A stretch of DNA of 64,000 bases from Anseongella ginsenosidimutans (lineage in GTDB: Bacteria; Bacteroidota; Bacteroidia; Sphingobacteriales; Sphingobacteriaceae): NCBI RefSeq assembly GCF_008033235.1, contig NZ_CP042432.1, positions 3,534,001-3,598,000 on the forward strand, written 5' to 3'. Made by a program: the position numbers and the translations under genes. Shown here in pieces: positions 10,903 through 31,956 of this stretch. The notes under the pieces were generated by a model that did no database searches, was not told the origin of the DNA, and worked only from the letters and a program-made list of their open reading frames with translations. Within the stretch, counting starts at the first letter, position 1, and each line of letters begins with the position of its first letter.

Positions 10903-11261
10903 TTATTCCTCCCTTATCCGGCTTTCGCGCGCGTTCAAGCTGTCTATCATTGCCTGGTACATCTTATCAAGTACATCCGGATGCTCCACGTAGTAATTAA
11001 AGCTGCTATTAAATTCCGCCGTATCCACTCCATACTTTTCAAATATTTCAAGGTACATCCCCGCCGCCGCGCGGTAAATACTGTCCGCCCTGAATTCCTG
11101 GAATGCATAGGCATCGGCATAATGCATGTCCGTAAGTATTTCTTTCATTTTCCCCCGGGGATCAGGTTATCCGGCGCCGGATCCTTCTCCATACAGGAAG
11201 CCCCCAGGAACAGAAAAAGGGCCGGAGCCATCAGTACCGGGCGAAGAGACATGCTTCTCAT
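10903..11261 (-). CDS. DUF4296 lipoprotein (single-base frameshift at 11152-11156)
   Basis: The start at 11261 gives a lipoprotein signal with a lipobox at LGASC and then MEKDPAPDNLIPGGK before an early stop. The following frame begins at KMKEILTDMHYADAYAFQEF and ends at 10903. Adding one G in the G5 run (plus 11152-11156) joins them as LIPGGKMKEILTDMHYADAY, the characteristic opening of DUF4296, giving 119 residues. The family is a Bacteroidota outer-envelope lipoprotein of unknown function. It is co-directional with and 4 bp from mutS2. Confidence 0.82.
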
Positions 11262-11302
11262 TGTGTTAAAGTCAGAATTTCCCTTATTTTTGTGCAAAAT
11301 TA
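11261..11302. promoter_or_regulatory. Back-to-back divergent Bacteroidota-type promoters (yggS and DUF4296)
   Basis: On the plus strand TTG at 11261-11263, 21 bp, then TATTTTTG at 11285-11292 fits the TAnnTTTG -7 consensus and would start transcription about 11 nt before the YggS ATG. On the minus strand TAATTTTG at 11295-11302 is a -7-like box for DUF4296-mutS2. The two -7 boxes are only 2 bp apart. Confidence 0.5.
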
Positions 11303-11309
11303 CGGATAA

Positions 11310-11975
11310 ATGAGCATCTCTGATAATCTCAAGGCTTTTAAAATGGAACTCGACCCCATCTGGGTTAAGCTGATCGCTGTTTCCAAGACAAAGCCGGCAG
11401 AAAAGATCCGGGAAGCTTATGACACCGGCCATCGGGCCTTCGGTGAAAATATCGTCCAGGAAATGGTGGAAAAGCAGGCCGGCCTGCCCGCCGATATTGA
11501 ATGGCATATGATCGGGCACCTGCAAACCAATAAGGTAAAATACATCGCTCCCTTTATCCACATGGTCCATTCGGTAGACAGTTTGAAACTATTAAAAGAG
11601 ATTGATAAACAGGCCCTGAAGAACAAGCGGGTTATTGATTGCCTGTTCCAGGTTCATATTGCCGACGAAGATACCAAGTTCGGCTTTTACTTCGACGAAC
11701 TGGTGGAGGTGCTGCGCTCGGAAGAATTCAGCCTGATGAAAAATATTCGCATTACCGGCCTGATGGGCATTGCTACCAACACGGACAACCAAAATCACGT
11801 CCGGGAAGATTTCTATGAACTGGCCACCCTTTTTAAAGGGATTAAACAATCTTTTTTCCGGAAATCCCCCCATTTCAAGGAGTTATCCATGGGAATGACC
11901 CAGGACTATAAGCTGGCCATTGAACAGGGAAGCACTATGGTGCGCATAGGCTCGGCCATCTTCGGGGGAAGATGA
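11310..11975 (+). CDS. YggS-family pyridoxal 5'-phosphate homeostasis protein
   Basis: A 221-residue alanine-racemase-fold protein of the YggS/PROSC family. The PLP-binding lysine is in LIAVSKTKPAEKI near the N-terminus, and the family signatures FGENIVQEMVEK, IEWHMIGHLQTNKVKY and LSMGMTQDYKLAIEQGSTMVRIGSAIFG are all visible. These proteins carry PLP without being a classical enzyme and keep B6 pools balanced. The ATG at 11310 lies just downstream of a good promoter. A GNAT gene follows and is probably co-transcribed. Confidence 0.95.
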   Translation: MSISDNLKAFKMELDPIWVKLIAVSKTKPAEKIREAYDTGHRAFGENIVQEMVEKQAGLPADIEWHMIGHLQTNKVKYIAPFIHMVHSVDSLKLLKEIDKQALKNKRVIDCLFQVHIADEDTKFGFYFDELVEVLRSEEFSLMKNIRITGLMGIATNTDNQNHVREDFYELATLFKGIKQSFFRKSPHFKELSMGMTQDYKLAIEQGSTMVRIGSAIFGGR

Positions 11976-12513: not shown

Positions 12514-13781
12514 ATGAGGGTATTCAAATTCGGGGGCGCTTCCGTAAAAAACGCAGAGGGTGTAAGAAATATAACGGAAATCATCCGGAAATATTCCGGC
12601 GAGCCGCTGCTGGTCGTGATTTCCGCCATGGGCGAAACAACCAATGCGCTTGAAAAACTCTGCCAGGCATTTTTCCGCCGGGACCCGGAGGCCGGGGCCT
12701 TGCTGGAAGAAATAAAAGCCGCTCACAACGCAATAGCCGCAGAATTGATAAAAGACAAGAAAAACCCGGTTTTCGACGCGCTTAACAATCTTTTTGTGGA
12801 ACTGGAATGGATCCTTGAAGAGGAACCCCATGCCGATTTCAACTTTGTTTACGACCAGATCGTAAGCCTGGGAGAATTACTTTCCACGCGGATCGTCGCC
12901 GCCTTCCTGGGCCAGGAAGACATCAGAAGCCGCTGGATAGACGCTCGCAATTATATTCATACCGACAACACGTACCGGGAAGGCCGCCTGAAGTGGGAAC
13001 TTACCGAACACCGGATCCGGGAGGAACTCCTCCCGCTCCTCGGGACCAGGTGCTGATCACCCAGGGCTTTATCGGGAGTACCTCTGAGAACTATACGACA
13101 ACGCTGGGCCGGGACGGCTCCGATTATTCCGCCGCTATTTTTGCTTACTGCCTGAACGCGGATAGCCTGACAATATGGAAAGATGTGCAGGGCGTGCTGA
13201 ACGCCGACCCCAAGTGGTTCAATAATACGATAAAGATCAACAAGCTGACCTATAACGACGCCATTGAATTATCTTATTACGGAGCGAACGTGATCCATCC
13301 AAAAACGATCAAGCCCCTGCAGAACAAGAACATCCCCCTGTATGTACGCTCCTTCCTGGAGCCGGACAAGCCGGGAACGGTGGTCATGCATGCTTACGAG
13401 GACCAGCTGCCCATTCCCTGTTTTATTTTTAAAATGAACCAGCGGCTTATCTCCGTCCATGCCAGGGATTTCTCTTTTATTCATGAAGACGGGTTCAGCG
13501 AAATTTTCCGGTACTTTGCCGAAAGCGGGACAAGGATCAATGTAATGCAAAATACAGCTATCAGCTTTTCGGTATCGGTTGACGATAATGAAAAGGTTCC
13601 CGCCCTCGTTGAAAAACTGAGGGAAAAATACAAGGTACTTTACAATACGGGAATGGAACTGATAACGATCCGTTATTACAACCAGGAAACAATTGACAGG
13701 GTGCTGGAGAACAAGCAGTTGTACCTTGAGCAAAAAAGCCGGTATACCGTACAGCTCGTGGTGAAGGAAGTGGAAAAATAA
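12514..13781 (+). CDS. lysC: Aspartate kinase (single-base frameshift at 13042-13044)
   Basis: The N-terminal frame starts VFKFGGASVKNAEGV, the ATP-binding KFGG motif, and stops at 13056 after ELLPLLGTRC. The catalytic continuation (DQVLITQGFIGSTSENYTTT, GRDGSDYSAAI) and paired C-terminal ACT-like regions (INVMQNTAISFSVSVDD) are in the next frame to 13781. One extra G in the GGG at 13042-13044 restores LLGDQVLITQGFIG and 422 residues, a normal monofunctional aspartokinase. It catalyses the first step toward Lys/Thr/Met and likely supplies the same pathway as metX at 49-50 kb. A terminator follows directly. Confidence 0.92.
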
Positions 13782-16481: not shown

Positions 16482-18424
16482 TTATAACTTGCGCTGCAGC
16501 ATTCCATCGATCTCCGATCGGATCATCTCTGTAAATGCCGGGGGCTGCATGCTCCCCATATCGCCCTGCCCGTGTTTCCTAACAGAAACCGTTCCATTCT
16601 CCTGCTCCTTCTCCCCGATAATCAGCATGTAAGGGATCTTTTTTAATTCGGCATCCCTGATTTTCCGGCCGATCTTTTCGTCACGGTGGTCAATCAAGCC
16701 GCGAATATCGGAAAAATTTAAAGATTCTAAAACTTTTTCTGCGTAGCTGGTATATTTTTCACTGATGGGTAAAACGATAAATTGGTCGGGCGTCAGCCAT
16801 AGGGGGAAGTTACCGGCGCAATGCTCCGTAAGCACACCGATGAAGCGTTCCATAGAACCGAACGGCGCCCTATGAATCATTACCGGGCGATGCTTCTGGT
16901 TATCTGCGCCAATATATTCCAGCCCGAAGCGCTCCGGCAGGTTATAGTCCACCTGGATGGTGCCTAACTGCCATTTCCGGCCCAGGGCATCCTTAACCAT
17001 GAAGTCCAGTTTGGGCCCGTAAAAAGCAGCTTCGCCTGTTTCAGTGACCGTTTCCAGCCCTTTGTTTTTGCAGGCTTCGATAATCGCCGTTTCCGCCTTC
17101 TCCCATAATTCGTCACTACCCAGGTATTTTTTCTTATCCTCCGGGTCACGCAGCGACACCTGCGCCGTATATTTAGTGAATCCAAGGGAATTAAATACGT
17201 GCATGACCAGGTCAATTACCTGCTCGAATTCTTCCTGTACCTGCTCCGGCCGGCAGAAGAGGTGGGCGTCATCCTGGGTAAAGCCGCGTACCCGTACCAG
17301 CCCGTTCAGCTCTCCAGACTGTTCGTAACGGTATACCGTCCCGAATTCCGCGATACGCAGGGGGAGGTCCCTGTAAGACCGCGGTTTAGAGGCGTATATT
17401 TCACAATGATGAGGGCAGTTCATCGGCTTCAGCAGGAACTCTTCGCCTTCATGCGGGGTATGTATCGGCTGAAAAGAATCCTTGCCGTATTTTTCATAGT
17501 GCCCGGAAGTTACGTATAATTCCTTACGGCCAATATGCGGAGTGATCACTCCCTGATAGCCTGCCTTTTGCTGGGCTTTCCGTAAAAACTGTTCCAGACG
17601 CTCCCGTATTCCTGCTCCACGGGGAAGCCAGAGGGGAAGCCCCGCTCCCACCTTTTCCGAAAAAGTGAACAGTTCCAGTTCTTTTCCCAGCTTCCGGTGG
17701 TCGCGTTTCTTTGCCTCTTCCAGGAAATGAAGGTATTCATCCAGCTCCGATTGTTTAGGAAAACTGATGCCGTAAATCCGGGTAAGCTGGTTCCGGCTTT
17801 CATCTCCGCGCCAGTAGGCGCCGGCCACCGACGTTAGTTTAACTGCTTTAATGAGGCCGGTTTCAGGGATATGAGGCCCCTGCAGAGGTCGGTAAAATTC
17901 CCCTGGGTATAAAAGGTGATGGTCCCGTCCTTCAGGCCATCTATCAATTCCAGTTTGTACTCATCCCCTTTCCGGCTGAAATAATCCACCGCTTCGGCTT
18001 TGGAAACCTCCCGTCGTTCATAGGGAGAACGGGTTTTAGCCAGCTCTTTCATCCTGGCCTCTATCAGCGGCAAGTCATCCGATGAAAAAGGCTGTTCCCC
18101 GAAATCCACATCGTAATAAAAACCGTTCTCAATCGCGGGCCCTATCCCGAATTTCACCCCTGGATAAAGGGCTTCCAGGGCTTCGGCCATTAAATGCGCG
18201 GTAGAATGCCAGAAAGTTGCTTTCCCTGCATCATCTTTCCAGGTAAGTAATTTCACGGCAGCATTTTCCATAACAGGCCGGGAAAGGTCCCATACCTTCC
18301 CGTTCACTTCGGCTGCCACTACATTACGGGCCAGACCCTCGCTGATGCTGCGTGCAATTTCGTATGAAGTTATTCCTTCCGGGTATTCCCGGACCGAATC
18401 ATCAGGTAACGTTATATTGATCAT
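16482..18424 (-). CDS. thrS: Threonyl-tRNA synthetase (single-base frameshift at 17877-17880)
   Basis: The N-terminal frame carries the TGS domain and the editing domain with [13 protein letters not shown], and stops at 17834 after [13 protein letters not shown]. The catalytic part resumes in the next frame: [20 protein letters not shown], class II motifs [20 protein letters not shown] and [15 protein letters not shown], then the anticodon domain. Adding one G in the GGGG run (plus 17877-17880) restores [20 protein letters not shown] and a 647-residue protein, the normal length. The ATG at 18424 gives [10 protein letters not shown]; an in-frame TTG at 18442 is less likely. Because thrS is essential and no second copy is visible, the break is best read as a sequencing error. 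Confidence 0.95.
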
Positions 18425-18482
18425 TAAAAAAATATAGCTCAAAGAGGGTCAAATTTAAAGCATATGCCTGCTTTTACAAAAT

Positions 18483-19856
18483 CTATTCTGTCAGATGTTC
18501 CCAAATTACATCAAACACTTCCACAGCCTGGCAATTTCCGCTTTTTCCCCGCAGCGGCTGCCCGGTAATTAGTACAGGCTTTTCCTGGTCCGGCACATTG
18601 ATACGGCCATGGGAACCCTTTACCAGGGAGGCATCCAGGGGAATGATATCCATCAGCATCCGGAAACCGAGCTTTTTCCGCAGCAGCTTCCAGGCGATCA
18701 GCGGCATCAGGAACTTTATACCAGGATTGGTAAACATTTCCACCGGGTCATAACCCGGTTTACGATGAATATCCACCACACGCGCGAAATCCGGCGCCCG
18801 GCTATCGTCCATCCAGTAGTAATAATCAAACCAGTAACCTTCCGCCGCTACGGCCACCAGGTCACCCGCTCTTTCATGGCCGATCCCATATTGTTGTTTC
18901 CCTTCCCCGTCCAGGATCAGTTCAATACCTTCAGTATCCTCCAGCAGGCTTCGTACCTTGTTCATGCAGGTTGTGTCGTTCACATAGACATGCGCCACCT
19001 GGTGGTCTGCCAGGGCAAAGGCCCGGGACGCGCCCGGATCCAGTAATTCCAGCCCGTTCTCTACCCGGACCTGCAATAACCCTTTTTTTCTCAACAGCCG
19101 GTTAAGGGAAACAGCATGCTGCACCTGTGATATTCCGTATTCCGAAAGCAGGATCACCCTTGCATTTCTTCCTTCGTAATAAGTGATCAGGTCTTTGCAA
19201 ACCGCGTCTATTTCTTCCAGGTCGGCCATGACCGAAGGATGACCGGGCCCATGCCGCTGAGGGTTATAGTCCATATGCGGCAGGTAGATCAGCGTCAGCG
19301 TAGGATCATACATCGCATCGGTTTTCATCGACGCGTCCGCAATCCAGCGGCTGGAACGAATATGAGTGTTAGGCCCCCAGAAATTAAAAAGCGGGAATTG
19401 GCCCAGTTCCTTTTGCATCTGATCACGCAGCTCCGGGGGCTGGGAATAGACGTCCGGGATCTTTCTTCCGTCAGCACGGTACTGCGGCCGGGGTGTAAGG
19501 GTATAATCGGCTGTACTGTACATATTATACCACCAGAACATTTTGGAACAGGTGAATGAAGGATCCAGTTTTTTAGCCTTTTCCCATATCTTTTCGGCCT
19601 GCACCAATTTGTTGGACTGCTTCCAGAATTTTATTTCCGCATCATTCCGGTCGTACCAGCCATTGCCTACGATGCCATGTTCGGTGGGAAGCCGGCCGGT
19701 CACATAAGTGGATTGCGCGCTGGTAGTAAGGGCAGGCAGCACGGGGTCAATGACCGTAGTATTTTTCCGGGAAGCCCATTCTTCCAGGAAGGGCGTATGC
19801 CGCCCGATAAAACATTTAGTAAGGCCTACCACATCAATGACAACCGTCTTATTCAT
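18483..19856 (-). CDS. eboF: EboF-type alkaline phosphatase-superfamily phosphodiesterase
   Basis: A 457-residue nucleotide pyrophosphatase/phosphodiesterase-like protein. Metal and nucleophile positions are visible: IDVVG at the N-terminus, LPALTTSAQSTYVTG with the Thr/Ser nucleophile region, LPHMDYNPQRHG, LLSEYGI and ALADHQVAHVYV. No signal peptide is seen, so it is likely cytoplasmic. It is the last ebo gene and overlaps eboE by 8 bp, with thrS about 58 bp downstream. The ebo cluster acts in making or moving an unidentified metabolite in cyanobacteria, algal plastids and bacteria; the substrate of EboF is not known. Confidence 0.85.
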   Translation of the reverse strand: MNKTVVIDVVGLTKCFIGRHTPFLEEWASRKNTTVIDPVLPALTTSAQSTYVTGRLPTEHGIVGNGWYDRNDAEIKFWKQSNKLVQAEKIWEKAKKLDPSFTCSKMFWWYNMYSTADYTLTPRPQYRADGRKIPDVYSQPPELRDQMQKELGQFPLFNFWGPNTHIRSSRWIADASMKTDAMYDPTLTLIYLPHMDYNPQRHGPGHPSVMADLEEIDAVCKDLITYYEGRNARVILLSEYGISQVQHAVSLNRLLRKKGLLQVRVENGLELLDPGASRAFALADHQVAHVYVNDTTCMNKVRSLLEDTEGIELILDGEGKQQYGIGHERAGDLVAVAAEGYWFDYYYWMDDSRAPDFARVVDIHRKPGYDPVEMFTNPGIKFLMPLIAWKLLRKKLGFRMLMDIIPLDASLVKGSHGRINVPDQEKPVLITGQPLRGKSGNCQAVEVFDVIWEHLTE

Positions 19857-21066
19857 CGAATTTGAAATGACTTAACTGCGCTTTTACCCACTTCAGTTCC
19901 CGGCTGATCGATTCGGCCATATCCAGCCTTAATTCGTCAGGGAGAACGTCCCATGTATAGGTTTCTACTTCCAGGTAATTGGTAAACGGCTTTTCCGAAA
20001 ACAATTTCAGGACTTTAAGAATATCCTTCTGTGTCGAAAGGAGCAGGCCGTATTTTTCAATGAAAAGCGGTACGTGAAAATGCACGCGCCATTCTTTATG
20101 TTCTTCATTAAAATGCCGGAGCGCCGGGGGCATATCGTAAAAACGCCGTAGCCGCCTGGGGCCTAGTTTCGCTACCACCTGATGTAAATAAACAGGTTCA
20201 TTAAATAGCCCTAATTCTTTTATTTTTTGGCGGTTATACTTTCCAAACAGCACCTTCAATGCGGCACTTACCTGCAGCTTACCCACACGGATGCCCTTTT
20301 CGGAGAGCTTCTTCAGCAGGCTGCTGTGATTCTCATAAGACACGGCCACATGACAGATATCGTAACACAGCCGGATATGCTCCTTTAGCAACGCCTTTGC
20401 TTCCGCGGCCTTCAGGCCCATCTTTTTCCGGAAATACTTGACCCCTTCCGGGAGCAGGTATTCCTCGTACCACTCTATAAATTCCCGGGTGTTGCCCAGC
20501 AGCCCGTCCGGCTCCGGTTCTATGTCAAGGTGAAGGCATACGCCCGATTCCGCCTTTTCCCGCGCCAGGTATTCGGCTACTTCCAGGATATGGTAGGTTG
20601 ACTGGATAACCGCATTGGTAGCCGCTGACCGGGTAGAAAACCAGTCTTTATAAGATAAGGGTGAAGTGGAAATGCTTCCGTTCATACCTACGGGAAGCAA
20701 TTCCTTCAATTGCCCGAAAAGCCTGAGCGTATAATCCAGGCGATCCCGGCTGAGCCAGTCCGGGTAATGAACCAGGTCTTTTACCTTTTCATAATGAAAG
20801 GCCCCGTAAGGGAAACCGTTCATCGTGAAAACATAAAAATTATTCTTTTTCAGCCAGCTCTTAAACCGCGTAAGCTCCTTCGCATCCAGCTCCTGGGAAG
20901 CCTGGTTGGACAAACGCAGCCCTACTCCCATCAGAGCGTCCTTATCACCGGCCTTTTCCCGTACGCTGGGTAAATATTTTTTTAACTGGCTAAAGGTTTC
21001 GTTCCAGCTTTCTGCCGGATGAATATTGGTACAATAAGTCAGGTGACAATTATTAGCAAGTAACAT
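19849..21066 (-). CDS. eboE: EboE, TIM-barrel metabolite traffic protein
   Basis: A 405-residue protein with the EboE signature start (LANNCHLTYCTNIHPAESW) and internal CYDICHVAVSYE and HLDIEPEPDGL segments, consistent with a xylose-isomerase-like TIM barrel. The family is called metabolite traffic protein EboE; its reaction is unknown. Its ATG at 21066 overlaps the repaired end of eboD by 14 bp, and its end overlaps eboF by 8 bp, which suggests translational coupling of D, E and F. Confidence 0.9.
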   Translation of the reverse strand: MLLANNCHLTYCTNIHPAESWNETFSQLKKYLPSVREKAGDKDALMGVGLRLSNQASQELDAKELTRFKSWLKKNNFYVFTMNGFPYGAFHYEKVKDLVHYPDWLSRDRLDYTLRLFGQLKELLPVGMNGSISTSPLSYKDWFSTRSAATNAVIQSTYHILEVAEYLAREKAESGVCLHLDIEPEPDGLLGNTREFIEWYEEYLLPEGVKYFRKKMGLKAAEAKALLKEHIRLCYDICHVAVSYENHSSLLKKLSEKGIRVGKLQVSAALKVLFGKYNRQKIKELGLFNEPVYLHQVVAKLGPRRLRRFYDMPPALRHFNEEHKEWRVHFHVPLFIEKYGLLLSTQKDILKVLKLFSEKPFTNYLEVETYTWDVLPDELRLDMAESISRELKWVKAQLSHFKFDE

Positions 21067-22242
21067 TCGCTTGTTCTTCTACAGATGCTGATCCCAGGAA
21101 TTTTATCGCTTTCAACAAGAGGCCTTCATCCATTTCATGCACTTCGGCGCCTTTTCCAATGTCTTCCAGCAGCGTAATGGTCAGCTGTCCCCCAGGTGTT
21201 CACGGAACTCATGCAGCCCCGCAAGTACGGAACGACTCCTGTTTTCCGCATCCAGGTTCAGCATAAGCAGGGGATCATAAAACCGGAATCCAAGCCGAAG
21301 GAACAGGGAAAGCACCCTTGCCGCATCTTCCTGCGACAACATTCCTTTTAGCGTGGAATAGGTGACATCCAGGGCCATGCCTATCACCACCGCTTCTCCG
21401 TGGCGAAGGCGGTAGTCACTCATTTGTTCCAGTTTATGCGCCGACCAATGGCCGAAATCAAGCGGCCTGGAAGAGCCCTTTTCAAAAGGATCGCCTCCTC
21501 CGCGAATGTGATCGAGGTGAAGTTTCGCACAATGGTAAATGATCTCTTTCATTCCGCTCATATCCCTTGCGGCAAGAGACGCTGCATTGCTTTCGATATA
21601 CCGGAAGAAAGGCTCATCCTTTATAAGGGCAACCTTTATTGCCTCGGCAATACCTGAACGCCAGTCCCTGATGTGCAGCGTACGCAGGAACTCAAAATCA
21701 TTAAGAACGGCCACTGGCGGAACAAAGGTTCCCAGGAAGTTCTTCTTTCCGAAGTAATTAATCCCGTTCTTCACTCCCACACCGGAATCGTTTTGCGAAA
21801 GTACCGTAGTAGGAATACGGATATGCCTTACTCCGCGATGCGCGATCGCCGCCGCATAACCCACAAGGTCCAGCACGGCCCCGCCTCCGATGGCGGCCAC
21901 AAAAGAATGCCGGTCAATCCCATATTGGTTTACCGCTTCCAGGATTTGCCGGGTGTATGTCTCATCATTTTTACATTGTTCTCCGCCAGGGATCAGGAGC
22001 GGTTCGGCACAAAGCGCCGGCAAGCCCGGGTGACTTTCAAAATAACCGCGGATTTTCCCGATAAGATCCGGATGATGGCGGGCCGCGCCCTCATCAATAA
22101 CAAATAAAATCTTTGAAGAGCTGGTTGAAGTTAATTCTTTTAAAACGTTGTGAAGTAATTTGTTATTGGTATCAAAAAGATGTTCTGTAAAAAAGACACT
22201 ATATTGATATGCCACACTAAACTCCTGCTTGATCGCTTCCAT
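21053..22242 (-). CDS. eboD: EboD, 3-dehydroquinate-synthase-like cyclase (single-base frameshift at 21189-21193)
   Basis: A sugar-phosphate-cyclase superfamily protein with PGGEQCKND, AIGGGAVLDLVGYAAA, RIPTTVLSQNDSGVGVKNG and DFGHWSAHKLEQMSDYRLRH, including the Lys and His residues expected for NAD and metal binding. The first frame stops at 21181 after EFREHLGDS. Adding one G in the G5 run at plus 21189-21193 continues it as LGGQLTITLLEDIGKG to ANVTC at 21053, giving about 396 residues. The ATG at 22242 is preferred; a TTG at 22296 would add 18 residues. True AroB is expected elsewhere, so this probably makes a different cyclitol-like product. Confidence 0.85.
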
Positions 22243-22357
22243 ATCTGCTGCGCTATTAAAAGCGGGTAAGTTACGAAAAATCAGATTCGTCCCCAAGTAT
22301 CTCCTACTGAAGTTTTTTTGAAAGACCGCTCAGCGCTAACCGGTAAGGCGGCAAATA

Positions 22358-23746
22358 CTAAATCACCCCTCCGCTGATCAGCATCGAGAGCAGTACGGTA
22401 AGTAAAAAACCACAGACGGAAATAATGGTTTCCATCATGGACCAGGATCTTAACGTTTCTTTTTCAGTAAGGTACAAATACCGGTTTACAAGCCAGAAAC
22501 CGCTGTCGTTTACATGAGAAAGCGTCGTGGCGCCAGAAGCGATGGCAATTACTACCAGCGCGTTCTGCATATCGGGAAGCGCCATTAATTGAAGCGCCGG
22601 CGCCACCATGCCTGCCGCGGTGATCATCGCTACCGTCGCCGAGCCCTGGGTAACCCGTATGATCAGGGCCAGCAGGTAGGCCAGGACGATCATTGGTACG
22701 TTCAGCGAGGTCATGGTTTCGGCCAGGGCTGTTCCTACCCCGCTGTCAATAAGTATCTCCTTGAACATTCCCCCGGCGCCGGTTACCAGGATGATCAGGC
22801 CGGCAGGAGCAAGTGATTTATTGGCAATTTCCAGTACTTCCCGGGAATTATAGCCCATGCGGCTGCCAAAGAAATACATCGCTCCAAGGGTGGCCATTAG
22901 CAACGCGCTGAAGGGATGCCCGGCAAACTGAACGGCTTTTACCCAAAAAGATTCCGCATTAATCATGCCGTCGCCGGCCAGGATATCCGCCACGGTACCA
23001 AGCATGATCAGCAGTAAGGGAAGAAGGATCAGGGTCATTACTACCGTAAAGGAAGGCAGCTTTCCCCCGCCGGCCGCCTCATCGGGATCCGGCTCCGGAA
23101 CATCTTCCAGCGGAGGCGGATAGGCCATGATCCGTTTGGAAATAAATTTACCAAAGACAGGCCCCGCAATAATGGCTACCGGGATCCCGATAATTACGCC
23201 GAAAAAAATGACCCAGCCAAGAGGCACATTTAATATCTCGGCCACGGCTACCGGCCCCGGGGTAGGCGGGACAAAAGTATGGGTCACACCCAGTCCGGCC
23301 AGCAGGGGAATACCGTAATACAGCGTAGATTTCCCGGTCTTACGCGCCAGGGCGTACACGATGGTTACCAGCATAATAAAGCCGATATCCAGGAAAATAG
23401 GAATAGAAATAATAAAACCGGTAAGGGTCAGCGCCCAGGGAGATTTTTTCTCCCCGAACCATTGCAACAGCCTCCTGGCCATTACCTCGGCGCCCCCGGA
23501 GGCTTCCATGAGCTGCCCGAAAATGGCTCCCAGGCCCACGATCACCGCCACGAAACCAAGTACACTACCCATCCCGTCCTGGATACTGGTAAAAATTTCC
23601 CTGACAGGCATGCCTGTTCCTACTCCTACCGCGATGCTTGCTACCAGCAGCGCCAGGAAAGCATGGACGTTGAAGCGGATAACAAGGATGAGCAACAGGA
23701 TAATCGCCAGGAGCGTGATGCCTAAAAGATACGCCGAGTCGGTCAT
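22358..23746 (-). CDS. GntP-family gluconate:H+ symporter
   Basis: A 462-residue polytopic membrane protein of the GntP family: hydrophobic throughout, with GLGVTHTFVPPTPGPVAVAEIL and the C-terminal VTQGSATVAMITAAGM and SGATTLSHVNDSGFWLV motifs. Family members import gluconate and similar sugar acids with protons. It lies between eboD and a GH43-type lipoprotein, on the same strand, and so interrupts the ebo gene order. Whether it imports an ebo-related compound or simply uses the same transcript cannot be told from sequence. Confidence 0.92.
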   Translation of the reverse strand: MTDSAYLLGITLLAIILLLILVIRFNVHAFLALLVASIAVGVGTGMPVREIFTSIQDGMGSVLGFVAVIVGLGAIFGQLMEASGGAEVMARRLLQWFGEKKSPWALTLTGFIISIPIFLDIGFIMLVTIVYALARKTGKSTLYYGIPLLAGLGVTHTFVPPTPGPVAVAEILNVPLGWVIFFGVIIGIPVAIIAGPVFGKFISKRIMAYPPPLEDVPEPDPDEAAGGGKLPSFTVVMTLILLPLLLIMLGTVADILAGDGMINAESFWVKAVQFAGHPFSALLMATLGAMYFFGSRMGYNSREVLEIANKSLAPAGLIILVTGAGGMFKEILIDSGVGTALAETMTSLNVPMIVLAYLLALIIRVTQGSATVAMITAAGMVAPALQLMALPDMQNALVVIAIASGATTLSHVNDSGFWLVNRYLYLTEKETLRSWSMMETIISVCGFLLTVLLSMLISGGVI

Positions 23747-23816: not shown

Positions 23817-24856
23817 TTAATTGAATGCCGGAACTTCCTGTTCTTCCAGCATGGGCTGTTTTCCCGCCATTGCAGGCCAGCCGTCCTTCCAGTTGATCTT
23901 ATCGAGCAGCATTACCCTTCCCTTGCCCGGATCCTTCCTGTCATAAGCGTGGTAAAGCATCCAGTCCTGCCCGCGGTCATCGGTGAAAATATCCCCGTTA
24001 TGGCCAGGGCCTGCAAAGGCCTCATTTCCTTCCAGAATAAGCGTCCCGCCGTTCTCCAGCAGGGCATTCCCCTCCCGGTCCACGTAAGGGCCTTTAAGAG
24101 AAGCCGCCCGCGCCACCTTTACGCGGTAAGTACTGCTGGCCCCTTCGCAGCAGGTACCCGTGGAACCAAAAAAATAATAGTGGCCTCCCTTCTTGAGAAT
24201 ATACGTGCCTTCGTATGCGTCTCCCGCGATCCGGAATTTCTCCCCCTTTATTTTGGTGCCGTCTTCTGATAATTCAATACCGTAGATCCCGTGGAAACTC
24301 CCCCAGAAGAGATAAGGCTTTCCTTCGTCTTCTATAAAGAAAGCGTCAATAGAATTATCCACACCTACGTCTTTACTATAAAACAACTTTCCCAGGTCGC
24401 GGAACGGCCCCTGGGGTTGCTCGCTTACCGCCAGGCCGATTCCCGGATTGGGGTCCCCCAGGTCGAAAAGGAATAATACAAACGGTAAAGCCCTTTATAG
24501 TAAACGGCGTCGGGCGCCCATATTCCGCCTTTCTCCTTCCAGTCCGGCTTCTTTTCCAATGCGGCCCCCACTTTCTCCCAGTTCACGAGGTCTTTCGACC
24601 GAAGTATGGGCATGACAAGCAAGCCCTCGCCCCAATTTGCCTGGGTGGAATAGGCATAAAAATAACCATCAGGAGCTTTGATCAGGTTCGGATCAGGAAA
24701 ATCTTTATTGAAAACAGGGTTCATAAACCCGCGGGGAGCGGTCTCAGGCTGCGTCTGGCTTGTATCTGCTTGCTCCGCTCCGCCCTGCTTTCCTCCCGAA
24801 AGGGAACAGGCCGCAAGGACAATTAGTAATCCAGGCAAATGAAAAATCGTCGTCAT
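23817..24856 (-). CDS. GH43-family lipoprotein glycosidase (single-base frameshift at 24455-24459)
   Basis: Lipoprotein signal with a lipobox at VLAAC, then a five-bladed GH43 fold: KDFPDPNLIKAPDGYFYAYS with the base Asp, IWAPDAVYY, VDNSIDAFFIEDEGKPYLFW with the second Asp, and AYEGTYILKKGGHYYFF with the acid Glu. The N-terminal frame stops at 24425 after STWGTPIRESAWR. One G added in the G5 run at plus 24455-24459 gives STWGDPNPGIGLAVSEQPQG and joins the C-terminal frame for a total of 346 residues. Members cleave arabinan- or xylan-type chains. It is placed between eboC and gntP. Confidence 0.88.
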
Positions 24857-25021
24857 GTTCACGTTGAAATATTGGTTCAGCCCCTAAAATAAGAATTTGT
24901 ACGTAAATGTCAGGCCGGGCTTGAATTTCCGTACGCAGTTTTACACGAAAGCCAAAAGCGGACAGCGAGTGTTGCGATCACGAGGGCCTGCTCCCGCAAG
25001 TGTAGCAAATACTAAATTGGT

Positions 25022-26848: not shown

Positions 26849-27751
26849 CTATTTATAAAATGCCCCGCGTTCGCACGCAAGCCCTAGCGTATCCCAGGTC
26901 AACTCTCCCCTTTCGGCCTTTCCGGCCAATCCGGGATGCGCTGACAGCAGTTCCTTTGCTTCGGGATGATCACTGTCATAACAAGCCAGTACAGCCGCTT
27001 CCTCCCGGCAGGGATCATTTCCAGCCAGCAGGCGCCGGATATCGGCAAACAATTTTTCATCCATAAAAGGCCCGAAACACCGCCAGAGTTCCGGGCTTAC
27101 CTGGCGGCCGGCCGACCAGCGCTCATGCGCATAATCGGAAAGGATCCTTGCCAGGGAAGCATTTGCCCGCTGGTCAATCCCGTATATGCGGTAAATAGGG
27201 CGCTGCATAAATAAGGCCTTCAGCACCATCTGGTTCCAGGCAGCTTCCTCCAGGTAATCAAACGGATAAGGATTATCCAAAGCGATGGCGTCAAATACAT
27301 CCGTAATATTGGTCCGTATCCCGTCAGTAGTACGAAAGCGGAAGGCTTCCGGAAATCGGTACAAAGGCAGGGCCGAGTACAAAGCAACCTGCTCATATAC
27401 TTCAGCTGCACTGAACAATTCTTCCACCCTTGCAATGTATTCCTGCTGCCCTCCGGAAGGATCAAGGTGCAGTAATAAATATACCCTGCAAAAACGGTCT
27501 ATGGTCCAGCTGCCGGGATTAAACCCTTTTCTGCAGGCTTTCAACAGCGCCTGCTGTTCAGGTGTGATAGTCATCGGGGATTTCCCCACCAGGCGTGGAA
27601 TACTGCTGAAAAGAAGGTTGAACTTCATTTTCGCCTGCGTCTCCGATGCCTCGTTCAGCTTTTTTTCAAGCTGGCCAAAAGCGTCCTCCGGCAGATTTTG
27701 CCGGATAAGGGCATTAAAACATGCCTTTAACTCGCCGGTTTTAACTTCCAT
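26849..27751 (-). CDS. eboA: EboA domain protein
   Basis: A 300-residue soluble protein without a recognisable catalytic motif. Segments such as PGSWTIDRFCRVYLLLHLD, IRTNITDVFDAIALDNPYP and EAAWNQMVLKALFMQRPIY are typical of the EboA family, which is the helical first gene of ebo clusters. Position supports this: first in the order A-B-C with a 20-bp gap to eboB. It is preceded by a TMEM220 gene 13 bp upstream. Function is unknown. Confidence 0.87.
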   Translation of the reverse strand: MEVKTGELKACFNALIRQNLPEDAFGQLEKKLNEASETQAKMKFNLLFSSIPRLVGKSPMTITPEQQALLKACRKGFNPGSWTIDRFCRVYLLLHLDPSGGQQEYIARVEELFSAAEVYEQVALYSALPLYRFPEAFRFRTTDGIRTNITDVFDAIALDNPYPFDYLEEAAWNQMVLKALFMQRPIYRIYGIDQRANASLARILSDYAHERWSAGRQVSPELWRCFGPFMDEKLFADIRRLLAGNDPCREEAAVLACYDSDHPEAKELLSAHPGLAGKAERGELTWDTLGLACERGAFYK

Positions 27752-27764
27752 GGAAAGAACCTGA

Positions 27765-28136
27765 TTAACGGCCGGTCCCTTGCCGGCGCTTTCGATAATA
27801 GTGAAAAATGAAGACGATCACCAGAATTAACAAACCGAAGAACTCTCTTGTTTCCTCTATCCAGGGTTTGGTTGCTTTCATCGTCTGGGCAATATTCTCA
27901 TGCTCATGCTCGAAAAACCACGATTCCAACCCCGGGATAAACCGGATCATGTACACAAAGTAAATGACCAGGCCGGCCAGTATCATCCATTTATTATAAC
28001 GGTTCGCGGCTGCCATAAAACATACGACTGCTGCGTATCCATATATGGGCACCCAGATAACCGGGTCCATATCGTTGTATTGCAAGGCGGCAAAAACAAC
28101 GAAAAGTATTCCCAGAAAAATATTTAACGCTCTCAT
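27765..28136 (-). CDS. TMEM220-family membrane protein
   Basis: A 123-residue membrane protein with about four hydrophobic helices. The N-terminal ALQYNDMDPVIWVPIYGY motif is characteristic of the TMEM220 family, a small membrane family shared by bacteria and animals with no known activity. It lies 13 bp upstream of eboA and 79 bp downstream of the ThuA gene, all on the minus strand, so it probably shares a transcript with ebo genes. Confidence 0.85.
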   Translation of the reverse strand: MRALNIFLGILFVVFAALQYNDMDPVIWVPIYGYAAVVCFMAAANRYNKWMILAGLVIYFVYMIRFIPGLESWFFEHEHENIAQTMKATKPWIEETREFFGLLILVIVFIFHYYRKRRQGTGR

Positions 28137-28215: not shown

Positions 28216-28953
28216 TCAGGAGCCTTCCAGCACATAGCGAATGCCCCCGGAAAGGTGTTTCAACACCAGGGGATTGCTAAAAGATTCCGGCATATGTCCC
28301 ATTAGCGTATAAAAGGCCCTCCCGCCGTCAAATTCGTGGTACCACGATACGGGATGCGCTTTGTTTTCACCATGATCATAACTGGTCTCGTCAATGGTCA
28401 CCAGAACGGTCACTTCAGAAGAAGAGGGATTCTTCCTGAAGTCATACCATTCATCCTTATGCATAAATTCCCGGGGAAGCCCCTTTGTAGAGGGATGCGA
28501 ATGATCTACCACTTTCAGCTTGCCCTTTGCGGTCGGGGGATGGCTTTTAAAATAGGCCCCGACCAGTTTCCCGTACCAGGGCCATTCGTATTCCGTATCC
28601 GTTGCCGAGTGGATCCCGACAAATCCGTGTCCCGCTTGTATATACCGCTCAAAAGCGGCCTGTTGTTCCTCGTCAAGGATATCCCCGGTCGTATTAAGAA
28701 AGATGACGGCATGGTAGGCGGCCAGCTTTTCATCGGTGAAAAAAGCAGCATCTTCCGTGGCCGTAATGCTAAAGCCCTGCTCCCGCCCCATCTTTTTAAG
28801 CGCTTCAATTCCGGCGGGAATTGAATTATGCCGGAACCCTGCCGTCTTTGAAAAGACAAGCAGCTGTTTATCCTGCCCCGCCGCTGCCGGCGCAAAGGCC
28901 GCCGCCATCAGGAAGAACACGCAGAAGCAGCTAATGAATCGGTGGCATTTCAT
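28216..28953 (-). CDS. Secreted ThuA-domain protein
   Basis: Signal peptide (FISCFCVFFLMAAAFAPAAAG) then a ThuA domain of the class I glutamine-amidotransferase-like fold: LLVFSKTAGFRHNSIPAGIE, GHGFVGIHSATDTEYEWPWYGKL with the family HSATDT motif, HKDEWYDFRKNP and PVSWYHEFDGGRAFYTLMGH. ThuA proteins accompany sugar oxidoreductases and DUF1080 proteins in Bacteroidota, which is the case here. It is predicted periplasmic; the reaction is not established. Confidence 0.9.
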   Translation of the reverse strand: MKCHRFISCFCVFFLMAAAFAPAAAGQDKQLLVFSKTAGFRHNSIPAGIEALKKMGREQGFSITATEDAAFFTDEKLAAYHAVIFLNTTGDILDEEQQAAFERYIQAGHGFVGIHSATDTEYEWPWYGKLVGAYFKSHPPTAKGKLKVVDHSHPSTKGLPREFMHKDEWYDFRKNPSSSEVTVLVTIDETSYDHGENKAHPVSWYHEFDGGRAFYTLMGHMPESFSNPLVLKHLSGGIRYVLEGS

Positions 28954-28970
28954 ACGACCGGGATTTGAAA

Positions 28971-29741
28971 TTAAAGTTGTTTTAACTTGATGTTACGGTA
29001 CCACACTTTATTTCCATGGTCCTGCAGGGCAATATGCCCCTTTTGCGACTTTCCAAAATCAGGCATGGAACTGAACTTGCTCCCTGCAATCAATTCGGCC
29101 CATTGGGGCGTATTGGTATCCACTTCCACGATCTTTACCCCATTCAGCCAGTGTTCGATTTTTCCGTCTTTTTGTACCAGCCTTACCTGGTTCCATTCGC
29201 CGACAGGTTTTACCGGCTCTTCGCTGCTTTTAATAAGATCATACAGATCGCCGGCGCGATGCTTCTCGATCTTTCCGTCAGGGTGGCCGTCATTGTCCAG
29301 TACCTGCATTTCAGGACCGGTGTGGTAAGTAGCGGGATGCTCCCCTTCCACGACGTTATAAATAATACCGCTGTTCCCGTTCGGGGAGATCTTCCACTCC
29401 AGGCGAAGTTCGTAATCCTCGTAAGCCGCTGCAGTCATAATATCTCCGCCGCCGGATCCAAGCTTCGCGGTATCAAGCGTAAGCGTTCCTTCTTCCACCA
29501 CCCAGGCCACCGGTACATCATCCCTGTTGTATCCTTTCCAGCCCTCGGTAGTCTGCCCGTTAAACAAGAGTACCCATCCTTCGGCCTTTTCCTGTTCGCT
29601 CAGCTGGTTTTGCCCGTTATTTGCTCCTGTTTCCACTGCTGTACTGTCTTTTTGTTCTTCTTCGTTTTTTGTTGACTGGCCGGTACATCCCCAGGCCAGC
29701 GCCGCGAATGCGGTTGCGTACGTTATATATGTTTTCTTCAT
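28971..29741 (-). CDS. DUF1080 lipoprotein (3-keto-glycoside hydrolase/lyase family)
   Basis: Lipoprotein with a lipobox at LAWGC, a Thr/Glu/Lys-rich spacer, then a concanavalin-like DUF1080 domain: EGWVLLFNGQTTEGWKGYN, YEDYELRLEWKISPNGNSGI, EMQVLDNDGHPDGK, GEWNQVRLVQKDGKIEHWLNG and a final IALQDHGNKVWYRNIKLK. The family has been linked to cleavage of 3-keto-glycosides after sugar oxidation. Its place between a secreted ThuA gene and a Gfo/Idh/MocA dehydrogenase supports that role. It is probably displayed in the periplasm or outer membrane. Confidence 0.9.
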   Translation of the reverse strand: MKKTYITYATAFAALAWGCTGQSTKNEEEQKDSTAVETGANNGQNQLSEQEKAEGWVLLFNGQTTEGWKGYNRDDVPVAWVVEEGTLTLDTAKLGSGGGDIMTAAAYEDYELRLEWKISPNGNSGIIYNVVEGEHPATYHTGPEMQVLDNDGHPDGKIEKHRAGDLYDLIKSSEEPVKPVGEWNQVRLVQKDGKIEHWLNGVKIVEVDTNTPQWAELIAGSKFSSMPDFGKSQKGHIALQDHGNKVWYRNIKLKQL

Positions 29742-29747
29742 ATTATT

Positions 29748-30800
29748 TTATATTCCAAGTATACGTTTGTTAAAAGCCTCATCCGGGCCGGTTCCTGCAA
29801 AATCGTCAAAGGTTTTTTCCGTTACCTTGATAATATGGTCATTTACAAAACCAACACCCTCGGTAGCTCCCTGAACAGGATCCTTTATACAGCATTCCCA
29901 CTCAATTACCGCCCATCCGTCAAAATCGTACCGGGATAATTTGGAAAAAATGCCTCCAAAGTCCACCTGCCCGTCGCCCAGGGAGCGGAAGCGCCCCGGC
30001 CTGTCAATCCAGTCCTGGTAGCCCCCGTAAACCCCCGATTTACCGGTAGGATTAAATTCCGCGTCCTTTACGTGGAACATTTTGATCCTTTCATGGTAAA
30101 AATCAATGAACTGGAGATAATCCAGCTGCTGCAGCACAAAATGACTGGGATCGTAGAGAATGTTCGCGCGTTTGTGATTGCCGGCGGCAGCCAGAAAGCG
30201 TTCAAAGGTAACGCCGTCATGAAGGTCTTCTCCGGGATGCAATTCAAAGCAGACATCTACCCCATGCTCCTCAAATACATCGAAAATAGGAACCCAGCGT
30301 TTGGCAAGTTCATCGAAACCGGCTTTCACCAGTCCCCCGGGACGCTGCGGCCAGGGATATACCGTATGCCACATTAAGGCGCCGGAAAAACTCGCGCAGG
30401 CTTTCAGCCCCAGGTTGGCGCTCGCCTTTGCCGCAAGCTTGAGCTGGTTGACAGCCCATTCTGTGCGGGCTTTAGGATTTTTATGGTATTCGGCAGGTGC
30501 AAATCCGTCAAAAAGTTCATCATAAACCGGCTGTACGGCCACCAGCTGGCCCTGCAGGTGGGTGGAAAGTTCCGTGATCTCCAGCCCGGCTTCTGCCACG
30601 GTGCCTTTAAGCTCATCGGCATAGTCGCGGCTTTCGGCAGCTTTGGCCAGGTCCATACAGCGCCCGTCCCAGGAAGGGATTTGTATCCCCTTGTATCCCA
30701 GATCGCCTAACCAGTTGCAAATATTCTTTAAATTATTAAATGGCTCCTTGTCATCCATGAACTGCGCAAGGAAAATAGCGGGTCCTTTGATCGTCTTCAT
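29748..30800 (-). CDS. Xylose-isomerase-like TIM-barrel sugar phosphate isomerase/epimerase
   Basis: A 350-residue AP-endonuclease-2/xylose-isomerase-like TIM barrel. Putative metal and base residues lie in CFELHPGEDLHDG, ANILYDPSHFVLQ, KMFHVKDAEFNPTG and GWAVIEWECCIKD. No signal peptide is seen. It starts 1 bp after the Gfo/Idh/MocA gene stops and ends 6 bp before DUF1080, so it is co-transcribed with them. It probably isomerises or epimerises the sugar released or oxidised by the neighbouring enzymes; the actual substrate is unknown. Confidence 0.9.
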   Translation of the reverse strand: MKTIKGPAIFLAQFMDDKEPFNNLKNICNWLGDLGYKGIQIPSWDGRCMDLAKAAESRDYADELKGTVAEAGLEITELSTHLQGQLVAVQPVYDELFDGFAPAEYHKNPKARTEWAVNQLKLAAKASANLGLKACASFSGALMWHTVYPWPQRPGGLVKAGFDELAKRWVPIFDVFEEHGVDVCFELHPGEDLHDGVTFERFLAAAGNHKRANILYDPSHFVLQQLDYLQFIDFYHERIKMFHVKDAEFNPTGKSGVYGGYQDWIDRPGRFRSLGDGQVDFGGIFSKLSRYDFDGWAVIEWECCIKDPVQGATEGVGFVNDHIIKVTEKTFDDFAGTGPDEAFNKRILGI

Positions 30801-30801
30801 A

Positions 30802-31956
30802 CTATTCGAATTTTGTCCACTTCTGATCGCTGGCAGATGATTCCACTACTTTATCTATAAACAGCATACCGCGCACGCCATCAGCCGCACCCGGGAAATC
30901 CAGCGCGGCAGCAGGCGGCTCCACACCGTCTATCCTGGCGGCAAGTGTTTGGGCAAAATTGCGGTAAAGGTTGGCAAATGCTTCCAGGTAACCCTCGGGG
31001 TGCCCGGCCGGCGTGCGGCAATTCGCTGCGGCGGCTTCCGACAGGTAACCGGTTCCCGCCCGCCAGATTTCAGCCGGTTTATCCAGCCACCGTACAATAA
31101 GAGTATTAGGCTCATGCTGCGCCCATTCAAGGCCGCCATTCTCACCGTAAATGCGAATTTTTAACGCGTTTTCTTCTCCGGCGGCCACCTGGGATGCCAT
31201 TAATACGCCCGCCGCGCCGTTATCAAAGCGAAGCAGTACGGCTCCGTCGTCGTCCAGTACCCGGCCTTCCACCAGGGTGTGCAGGTCCGCGCAGATCTGG
31301 CTGATCTTCAGGCCGGAAATATACTCCGCTAAATTCGCGGCGTGAGTCCCTATATCGCCCATGCAGCCGCTCTTCCCGGATTTTTTGGGATCGGTCCGCC
31401 AGGCTGCCTGCGCATTTCCTTCCCGTTCGGTAAGTTTGCTCAGCCAGCCCTGGGGATATTCTACCCATATTTTCCTTACTTTACCAAGTGCGCCGTCCTT
31501 AATAAGCTGCCGGGCTTGTTTTACCATTGGATAACCGGTATAAGTATGGGTCAGCAGCAGCGTCAGGCCTGTTTCTTCGACCTTGGCCTGCAGTTGCCGG
31601 GCTTCTTCAAGGGTAAAGGTCATGGGTTTTTCCACTACGACATGGAACCCTTTCTCCAATGCCAGCATGGCCGGCGCAAAGTGTACAAAATTCGGAGTCA
31701 CGATCGTAATGAAGTCAAGACGCTCCTCGGCAGGCTTGGCAGCTTCTTCTTCTAACATCGTTTTATAATCGGTATAGATCCGCGAGGGGTCAAGGAAAAG
31801 CATTTCACCAGATTCCTTAGCTATCTGAGGGTCAATACTCAGGGCGCCGGCCTTCAGTTCAATCTGGCCATCCATATTCAAAGCCAGGCGGTGGACAGCG
31901 CCGATAAAGGCGTCCTTGCCACCACCGATCATTCCCATTCGAAGTTTTCTTTCCAT
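30802..31956 (-). CDS. Gfo/Idh/MocA-family NAD(P)-dependent oxidoreductase
   Basis: A 384-residue cytoplasmic oxidoreductase with N-terminal Rossmann motif GMIGGGKDAFIGAVHRLAL, the family EKPMTF signature (VVVEKPMTFTLEEA) and an expected catalytic region GCMGDIGTHAANLAEYISG. It is the first gene of a tight minus-strand block (TIM barrel, DUF1080, ThuA). By analogy with such clusters it may oxidise a sugar at C3 or reduce a keto-sugar. A promoter-like element lies about 60 bp upstream. Confidence 0.92.
   Translation of the reverse strand: MERKLRMGMIGGGKDAFIGAVHRLALNMDGQIELKAGALSIDPQIAKESGEMLFLDPSRIYTDYKTMLEEEAAKPAEERLDFITIVTPNFVHFAPAMLALEKGFHVVVEKPMTFTLEEARQLQAKVEETGLTLLLTHTYTGYPMVKQARQLIKDGALGKVRKIWVEYPQGWLSKLTEREGNAQAAWRTDPKKSGKSGCMGDIGTHAANLAEYISGLKISQICADLHTLVEGRVLDDDGAVLLRFDNGAAGVLMASQVAAGEENALKIRIYGENGGLEWAQHEPNTLIVRWLDKPAEIWRAGTGYLSEAAAANCRTPAGHPEGYLEAFANLYRNFAQTLAARIDGVEPPAAALDFPGAADGVRGMLFIDKVVESSASDQKWTKFE

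Follow-up and report, generated by a model that had tools for sequence, protein, structure and literature searches.

The ebo operon is widespread, and it has been proposed to help metabolites across the inner membrane. In Nostoc ebo mutants the scytonemin monomer remains cytoplasmic, and the authors of that study put forward a prenylated cyclitol as the carrier (PMC6282210, available part). An isoprenoid-cyclitol product of EboD and EboC was proposed by Yurchenko et al. 2016 (PMC5133447, available part), and quinoline derivatives were farnesylated by EboC-type enzymes in a heterologous host (PMC9235831, available part). Human TMEM220 is reported to be a Golgi-resident protein whose knockdown alters Golgi form and glycoprotein secretion (PMC6979480, available part). 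An earlier sequence-only reading of the DNA analysed here held that TMEM220, a small membrane protein family also present in animals, has no known activity; this is slightly out of date, because the human protein is reported to be needed for glycoprotein secretion.

The stretch of DNA analysed here, called the window, comprises 64,000 nucleotides of the Anseongella ginsenosidimutans genome. It shares with the described ebo operon (Yurchenko et al. 2016 PMC5133447; Klicki et al. 2018 PMC6282210) the complete set A-B-C-D-E-F on one strand; it differs in that a TMEM220 gene stands at its 5' end and that C is separated from D by GH43 and GntP genes. TMEM220 and eboA were counted in a phylum sample of 392 Bacteroidota genomes and in three families: f1, the family of the window (181 genomes), f4 (179 genomes, nearly one per genus) and f5 (150 genomes). 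Judged from its many genera, f4 is probably Flavobacteriaceae.

TMEM220 and eboA in a complete ebo block

The sequence-only reading had placed a TMEM220 gene beside eboA at 27751-27765. This was confirmed: the two positions are the edges of two genes on the same strand, with TMEM220 first and a 13-bp gap between them (Table 1). The TMEM220 ORF matched PF15071 with an E value of 2.4e-23 (83.1 bits against a cut-off of 27, model positions 1-99 of 100), and it was the only TMEM220 in the window genome, which is a single contig of 4.32 Mb. The eboA product matched the NCBIfam EboA domain NF035938 (3.7e-52, 176.3 bits, above the cut-off of 50) and scored 249.7 bits with the narrower NF035937 (EboA_family), below the subfamily cut-off of 320; by these scores it is classed as an EboA-domain protein only, outside EboA_family NF035937.

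Table 1 Features of the ebo block and its upstream neighbours in the window
Feature	Coordinates	Strand	Evidence
TMEM220 (PF15071), 123 aa, first gene of ebo block	27765..28136	-	Pfam
Spacer, TMEM220 stop to eboA start, 13 bp	27752..27764	-	sequence
eboA, EboA-domain protein, 300 aa	26849..27751	-	NF035938
eboB, TatD-like metal-dependent hydrolase, 300 aa	25926..26828	-	PF01026 2.1e-17; Ebo name from position and family
eboC, UbiA-like prenyltransferase, 296 aa	25022..25912	-	NF035940 (UbiA-like protein EboC) 329.9 bits, cut-off 250
GH43 glycosidase gene between eboC and eboD, two ORFs (24425-24862, 23817-24386)	23817..24862	-	PF04616 in each piece
GntP-family permease between eboC and eboD	22358..23746	-	PF02447 3.1e-146; present in L250 too
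eboD, 3-dehydroquinate-synthase-like sugar phosphate cyclase	21181..22296	-	PF01761, PF24621
eboE, TIM-barrel protein	19849..21066	-	NF035939 476.9 bits, cut-off 250
eboF, type I phosphodiesterase / nucleotide pyrophosphatase family	18483..19856	-	PF01663 2.3e-60
ThuA, next gene upstream of TMEM220, 79 bp away	28216..28953	-	Pfam
3-keto-disaccharide hydrolase family protein	28971..29741	-	Pfam
AP_endonuc_2 TIM barrel	29748..30800	-	Pfam
Gfo/Idh oxidoreductase	30802..31956	-	Pfam; similarity to L108

All six genes eboA-F were clustered in the window on the minus strand in the order A-B-C-D-E-F, and their families were matched by NCBIfam for A, C and E and by Pfam for B, D and F. The layout keeps to a single strand throughout, yet GH43 and GntP separate eboC from eboD. 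Around the operon, counts of Bacteroidota-type and sigma-70-type promoter patterns and of terminators were not above those of shuffles.

The TMEM220-eboA arrangement recurs in G398 (locus L250), which belongs to the same genus as the window genome; its gap is 12 bp, and the two TMEM220s are 77% identical. The pair is thus not a chance one, since it is kept in this second genome and recurs at 44 of the 62 eboA loci of f1. GH43 and GntP also lie between eboC and eboD in L250, so this insertion is common to the genus. L250, which begins inside the TIM-barrel gene, carries ThuA, the 3-keto-disaccharide hydrolase and the TIM barrel as well, and its GH43 is a single 336-aa ORF that matches the window GH43 region in two frames.

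In the window, the threonyl-tRNA synthetase (16482-18442), aspartokinase-like (12514-13781) and GH43 (23817-24862) genes were each found in two ORFs. Because housekeeping genes are among them, frameshift errors in the assembly are suggested rather than real pseudogenes; TMEM220 and eboA-F are unaffected. The Gfo/Idh and 3-keto-disaccharide hydrolase genes were also seen upstream of ebo in several f1 genera, together with the TIM barrel where this was checked, and these sugar genes occur with TMEM220 (L251, L252, window 28216-31956) or without it (L219-L222).

Linkage of TMEM220 to ebo operons in other genomes

A functional link had been suggested from the 13-bp spacing, and neighbourhood statistics across Bacteroidota had been named as the check, with TMEM220 rarely near eboA as the contrary outcome. 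At 44 of the 62 eboA loci of f1, TMEM220 lay immediately 5' on the same strand; it was on another contig in 12 and absent in 6. At 28 of the 31 eboA loci of f4, it was part of the operon or adjoined it, again on the same strand, and here the position differed: among the 31 eboA genomes TMEM220 was downstream in 24, directly 5' of eboA in 4, on another contig in 2 and lacking in 1. Of the downstream genes, 22 were 5.4-6.2 kb and two were 9-10 kb from eboA, and in the loci inspected TMEM220 directly followed eboF, except in G604 (L243), where two genes lie between. These f1 and f4 counts include broken or partial TMEM220 genes above the cut-off (G541, G559 and the second copy of G483); G488 and G646 each enter without their second hit, which scored below the cut-off.

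A third arrangement was found in f36, where the operon is rearranged to E-F-A-B and TMEM220 stands 29 bp before eboE. In the phylum sample, from which the below-cut-off matches in G085 (TMEM220) and G368 (EboA) were excluded, 10 of the 27 genomes with both TMEM220 and EboA had them linked: 4 of f1 at the 5' end of eboA, 5 of f4 at the 3' end of eboF, and 1 of f36 before eboE. Tight linkage therefore recurs in three positions, namely before eboA, after eboF and before eboE, and where the genes were neighbours in the loci inspected, the spacing to eboA ranged from -41 to 220 bp and the spacing after eboF from -8 to 89 bp.

The contrary outcome was not seen in f1 or f4, and the functional link gained support at the level of families. 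Viewed from the TMEM220 side, linkage was the minority state (10/53 in the phylum sample, 4/80 among the database loci described below and 0/91 in f5). What supports the link is its repetition in different positions; the gap in a single genome proves little.

Co-occurrence of TMEM220 and eboA

Presence of the two genes was also compared across whole genomes, and kinship between genomes was ignored in all of these counts. In f1, EboA was found in 62 genomes, TMEM220 in 74 and both in 56, which means that TMEM220 was present in 56/62 genomes with eboA vs 18/119 without it (kinship ignored). The figures for f4, with kinship likewise ignored, were 31, 42 and 30, or 30/31 vs 12/148, giving an odds ratio of 340 (p 3e-23). 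TMEM220 was over the cut-off in 53 genomes of the phylum sample, EboA in 35 and both in 27 (27/35 vs 26/357, kinship ignored). Counting by genus (n = 179) gave 33 with TMEM220, 21 with EboA and 18 with both (18/21 vs 15/158, Fisher p 5e-13, kinship again ignored). Two TMEM220 hits were found in 16 f1 genomes, and 15 of these had eboA. On the other hand, eboA occurred without TMEM220 in 6 f1 genomes, 1 f4 genome and 8 of the 35 phylum-sample genomes.

The ThuA family was used as a control in the same f4 genomes. It occurred in 29/31 genomes with eboA vs 85/148 without, an odds ratio of 10.7 (p 6e-5), which is far weaker than the association of TMEM220. Among the 114 ThuA-positive f4 genomes, 29 had TMEM220 and EboA, 11 had TMEM220 only, none had EboA only and 74 had neither.

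TMEM220 away from ebo operons

The tie between TMEM220 and ebo is not exclusive. In f5, TMEM220 was found in 91 of 150 genomes and EboA in 8, all of which carried both (Fisher p 0.02, kinship ignored), and eboA adjoined TMEM220 at 0/91, not even in the 8 genomes with both. The remaining 83 of the 91 belong to the 142 f5 genomes that lack eboA. In the phylum sample, 26 of the 53 TMEM220 genomes had no ebo. Among the 80 database loci nearest to the window TMEM220, which were chosen by the one pattern [AVF][LV]QYNDPD and come mostly from Chitinophagaceae and Mucilaginibacter, ebo adjoined TMEM220 in 4 and not in 76. The four were two Segetibacter loci with TMEM220 at both operon ends and two Chitinophaga loci with a divergent TMEM220 upstream. 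In the Segetibacter loci L144 and L149, the TMEM220 genes at the two ends of the ebo operon differ and fall on separate branches in the tree of the family.

A TIM barrel of the family found at window 29748-30800 was located upstream of TMEM220 in eight other loci of the phylum sample (n = 53), at distances of 0-3 bp in L097, L099, L100 and L103, 7 bp in L110 and 229 bp in L108, and with one gene between in L083 and L088. Together with the 83/142 eboA-lacking f5 genomes that carry TMEM220, this recurrence is what would be expected if TMEM220 were a general envelope helper of many modules for amphipathic molecules or sugars, with ebo as one partner among them and no special tie to it. We consider this possible, and clearly less probable than a real tie: a general helper does not readily account for a linked TMEM220 at 28/31 (f4) and 44/62 (f1) eboA loci in different positions, nor for its presence in 30/31 f4 genomes with eboA when it is missing from 136/148 of the others.

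Outside these samples, neither TMEM220 nor the EboA domain was found in any of 14 control genomes. In a plasmid collection, eboA was found in 42 records and a tblastn search gave no TMEM220 match; TMEM220 was not listed in the annotated eboA surroundings of 3 plasmid records, for which the plasmid gene table is incomplete.

Other neighbours of ebo genes

A gene pair was observed directly upstream of ebo or its eboD in L223, L132, L279 and L281; one gene encodes a ferritin-like protein and the other an uncharacterised protein some 590-680 aa long. These are eboA loci without an adjacent TMEM220, and two of them (G712, G166) are from genomes without a TMEM220 match. The pair, which may resemble VioB, occurs in Bacteroidota and in Mycetohabitans plasmid DNA; PF12902 was confirmed in L223, and the pair is possibly a metabolite module that Ebo serves. 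In Mycetohabitans L281, a gene of the TMEM165/GDT1 family (10914-11495), another family common to bacteria and the animal Golgi, follows the ebo genes.

One origin of the linkage or several

A tree of TMEM220 (179 sequences) separated the 5' type of f1, the 3' and 5' types of f4 and the f36 gene from one another. Left out of this tree were L155 and L167, which duplicate the records of L071 and L074, the repeats L273 and L274 and the window copy of L070. IQ-TREE analysis of 101 rows, from which 19 named near-copies and four in five database rows were omitted, required 9 changes for the linked label, and 0 of 200 bootstrap trees needed only one. Forcing all linked rows into one clade cost 82 log units (AU p 4.3e-6), in a test that also took in five unlinked rows nested among or close to the linked ones; the groups for this and the other AU tests were defined after the first tree was seen. 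Because the linked TMEM220s reject a single clade in the AU test, linkage probably arose more than once. The number of origins is not fixed by these tests, since pairwise AU tests were weak: p 0.032 for f4 3' with f4 5', 0.084 for f1 5' with f4 5', and 0.21 for f1 5' with the genus of the window.

Within f4, a dnaX-like gene (Pfam) lies convergent to TMEM220 even when ebo is missing (L079, L276) or located elsewhere (L236), so the f4 linkage may go back to a single old event that descent has preserved. In L276, TMEM220 directly adjoins a 193-aa gene whose length matches that of the usual eboA neighbour, as is expected if ebo was lost and TMEM220 retained. The fixed dnaX site could also mean that linkage carries no function at all: each family would have received ebo once, next to a TMEM220 site that was fixed, and descent would have kept it there, and co-occurrence would reflect genome size and lineage, in line with the correlation of the unrelated ThuA family with eboA in f4. 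We regard this as improbable, because most ebo-lacking f4 genomes (136/148) lack TMEM220 as well, because f4 operons have two distant TMEM220 types at opposite ends (one clade, p 0.032), and because a second TMEM220 copy in f1 nearly always goes with eboA (15/16 genomes).

Predicted structure and conserved residues of TMEM220

AlphaFold2 modelling with 60 aligned sequences gave a mean pLDDT of 89.8 and a pTM of 0.80, with helices at 2-21, 25-43, 49-64, 67-76 and 91-120, of which four are long and the short 67-76 lies in the last loop. TMEM220 is thus predicted to be a four-helix (four-TM) membrane bundle. Across the 179 sequences, N21, D22, W28, E94 and E98 were conserved in all 179, G101 and Y32 in 178, R97 in 177 and D24 in 176, and the window TMEM220 has all nine. 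By the modelled helix limits, the first turn would hold N21-D24, and E94-G101 would sit where the last long helix begins.

The first loop had on average 0.10 Lys/Arg and 2.04 Asp/Glu, and the mean number of Lys/Arg was 1.6 at the N-terminus, 2.0 in the second loop and 3.3 at the C-terminus. This charge distribution suggests that both polar motifs face the periplasm; the positive-inside rule was clear for the unlinked TMEM220s (132/133) but left the linked ones undecided (25/46).

The nine near-invariant residues could form a reaction site, and VIA-align gave Z values of 6.2-7.3 to many unrelated helix bundles; membrane enzymes and binders with four helices were among them, for instance VKOR (Z 7.3) and the sigma-2 receptor (Z 6.2). 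TMEM220 might accordingly be an intramembrane enzyme with a chemical action on the Ebo product, perhaps as an isomerase, reductase or hydrolase of the prenylated cyclitol, instead of a carrier or binding subunit. We are doubtful of this, because such Z values are ordinary for helix bundles, a Foldseek search with the model returned nothing under E 0.3 (best E 0.31), no Cys or His is conserved across the family and no cofactor motif was seen in TMEM220. A profile search of solved structures gave COX7c as the sole match (E 0.66), which was judged to be chance.

Discussion

We conclude that TMEM220 genuinely and repeatedly joins Bacteroidota ebo operons as a component beyond EboA-F. To the whole explanation, including a periplasmic role, we give a probability of roughly 0.55, and its parts differ in strength. 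A functional link between TMEM220 and Ebo is very probable, action at the periplasmic face is close to an even bet, and the handling of the particular Ebo lipid or cargo is a tentative proposal against which the odds still lie. In this proposal, the polar site formed by N21, D22, D24, W28 and Y32 with E94, R97, E98 and G101 would open at the periplasmic face of the inner membrane, where it would bind, or hand on, either the polar head group carried by the prenylated product of EboC and EboD or an accompanying cargo. Such a step would let the Ebo pathway deliver its product on the periplasmic side, and TMEM220 encoded away from ebo operons would play a corresponding part for other molecules that are lipid-linked or amphipathic.

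Human TMEM220, which we take to be the namesake of Pfam PF15071, invites a parallel. The Golgi lumen corresponds topologically to the periplasm, and the parallel between the human and bacterial proteins is suggestive only. Taken furthest, TMEM220 would be an ancient exoplasmic-face factor that receives lipid-linked or amphipathic molecules after they have crossed, completing Ebo export in Bacteroidota and an equivalent step of glycoprotein secretion in the animal Golgi through the same N-D-x-D / E-x-x-R-E site; this is a speculation to which we give little credence.

The main text of PMC5133447 does not mention TMEM220, nor does the available part of PMC9235831 mention 'TMEM', and in a search of the text of openly available papers, we found no paper combining TMEM220, bacteria and operon. 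A membrane-embedded partner with a conserved polar site would be a handle on how Ebo faces the periplasm. TMEM220, a family with a secretion-linked animal member, thereby gains a testable bacterial setting, in which a knockout could be read chemically.

A described gene that invites comparison is eboG (a provisional name, PMC5133447, available part), which like TMEM220 is a further short, uncharacterised ebo-associated gene. By its description there, eboG replaces eboA in genomes that lack eboA, whereas TMEM220 here adjoins eboA. By this positional definition the window TMEM220 does not qualify as EboG, because the window operon has eboA (definition in PMC5133447, available part). The name eboG is already used for another gene. 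The Edb cluster of Pseudomonas fluorescens, known from a nematode-feeding phenotype, includes a full ebo cluster (PMC6282210, available part). On the animal side, the likeness runs through the PF15071 family name to human TMEM220, reported as Golgi-resident and with a role in secretion (PMC6979480, available part).
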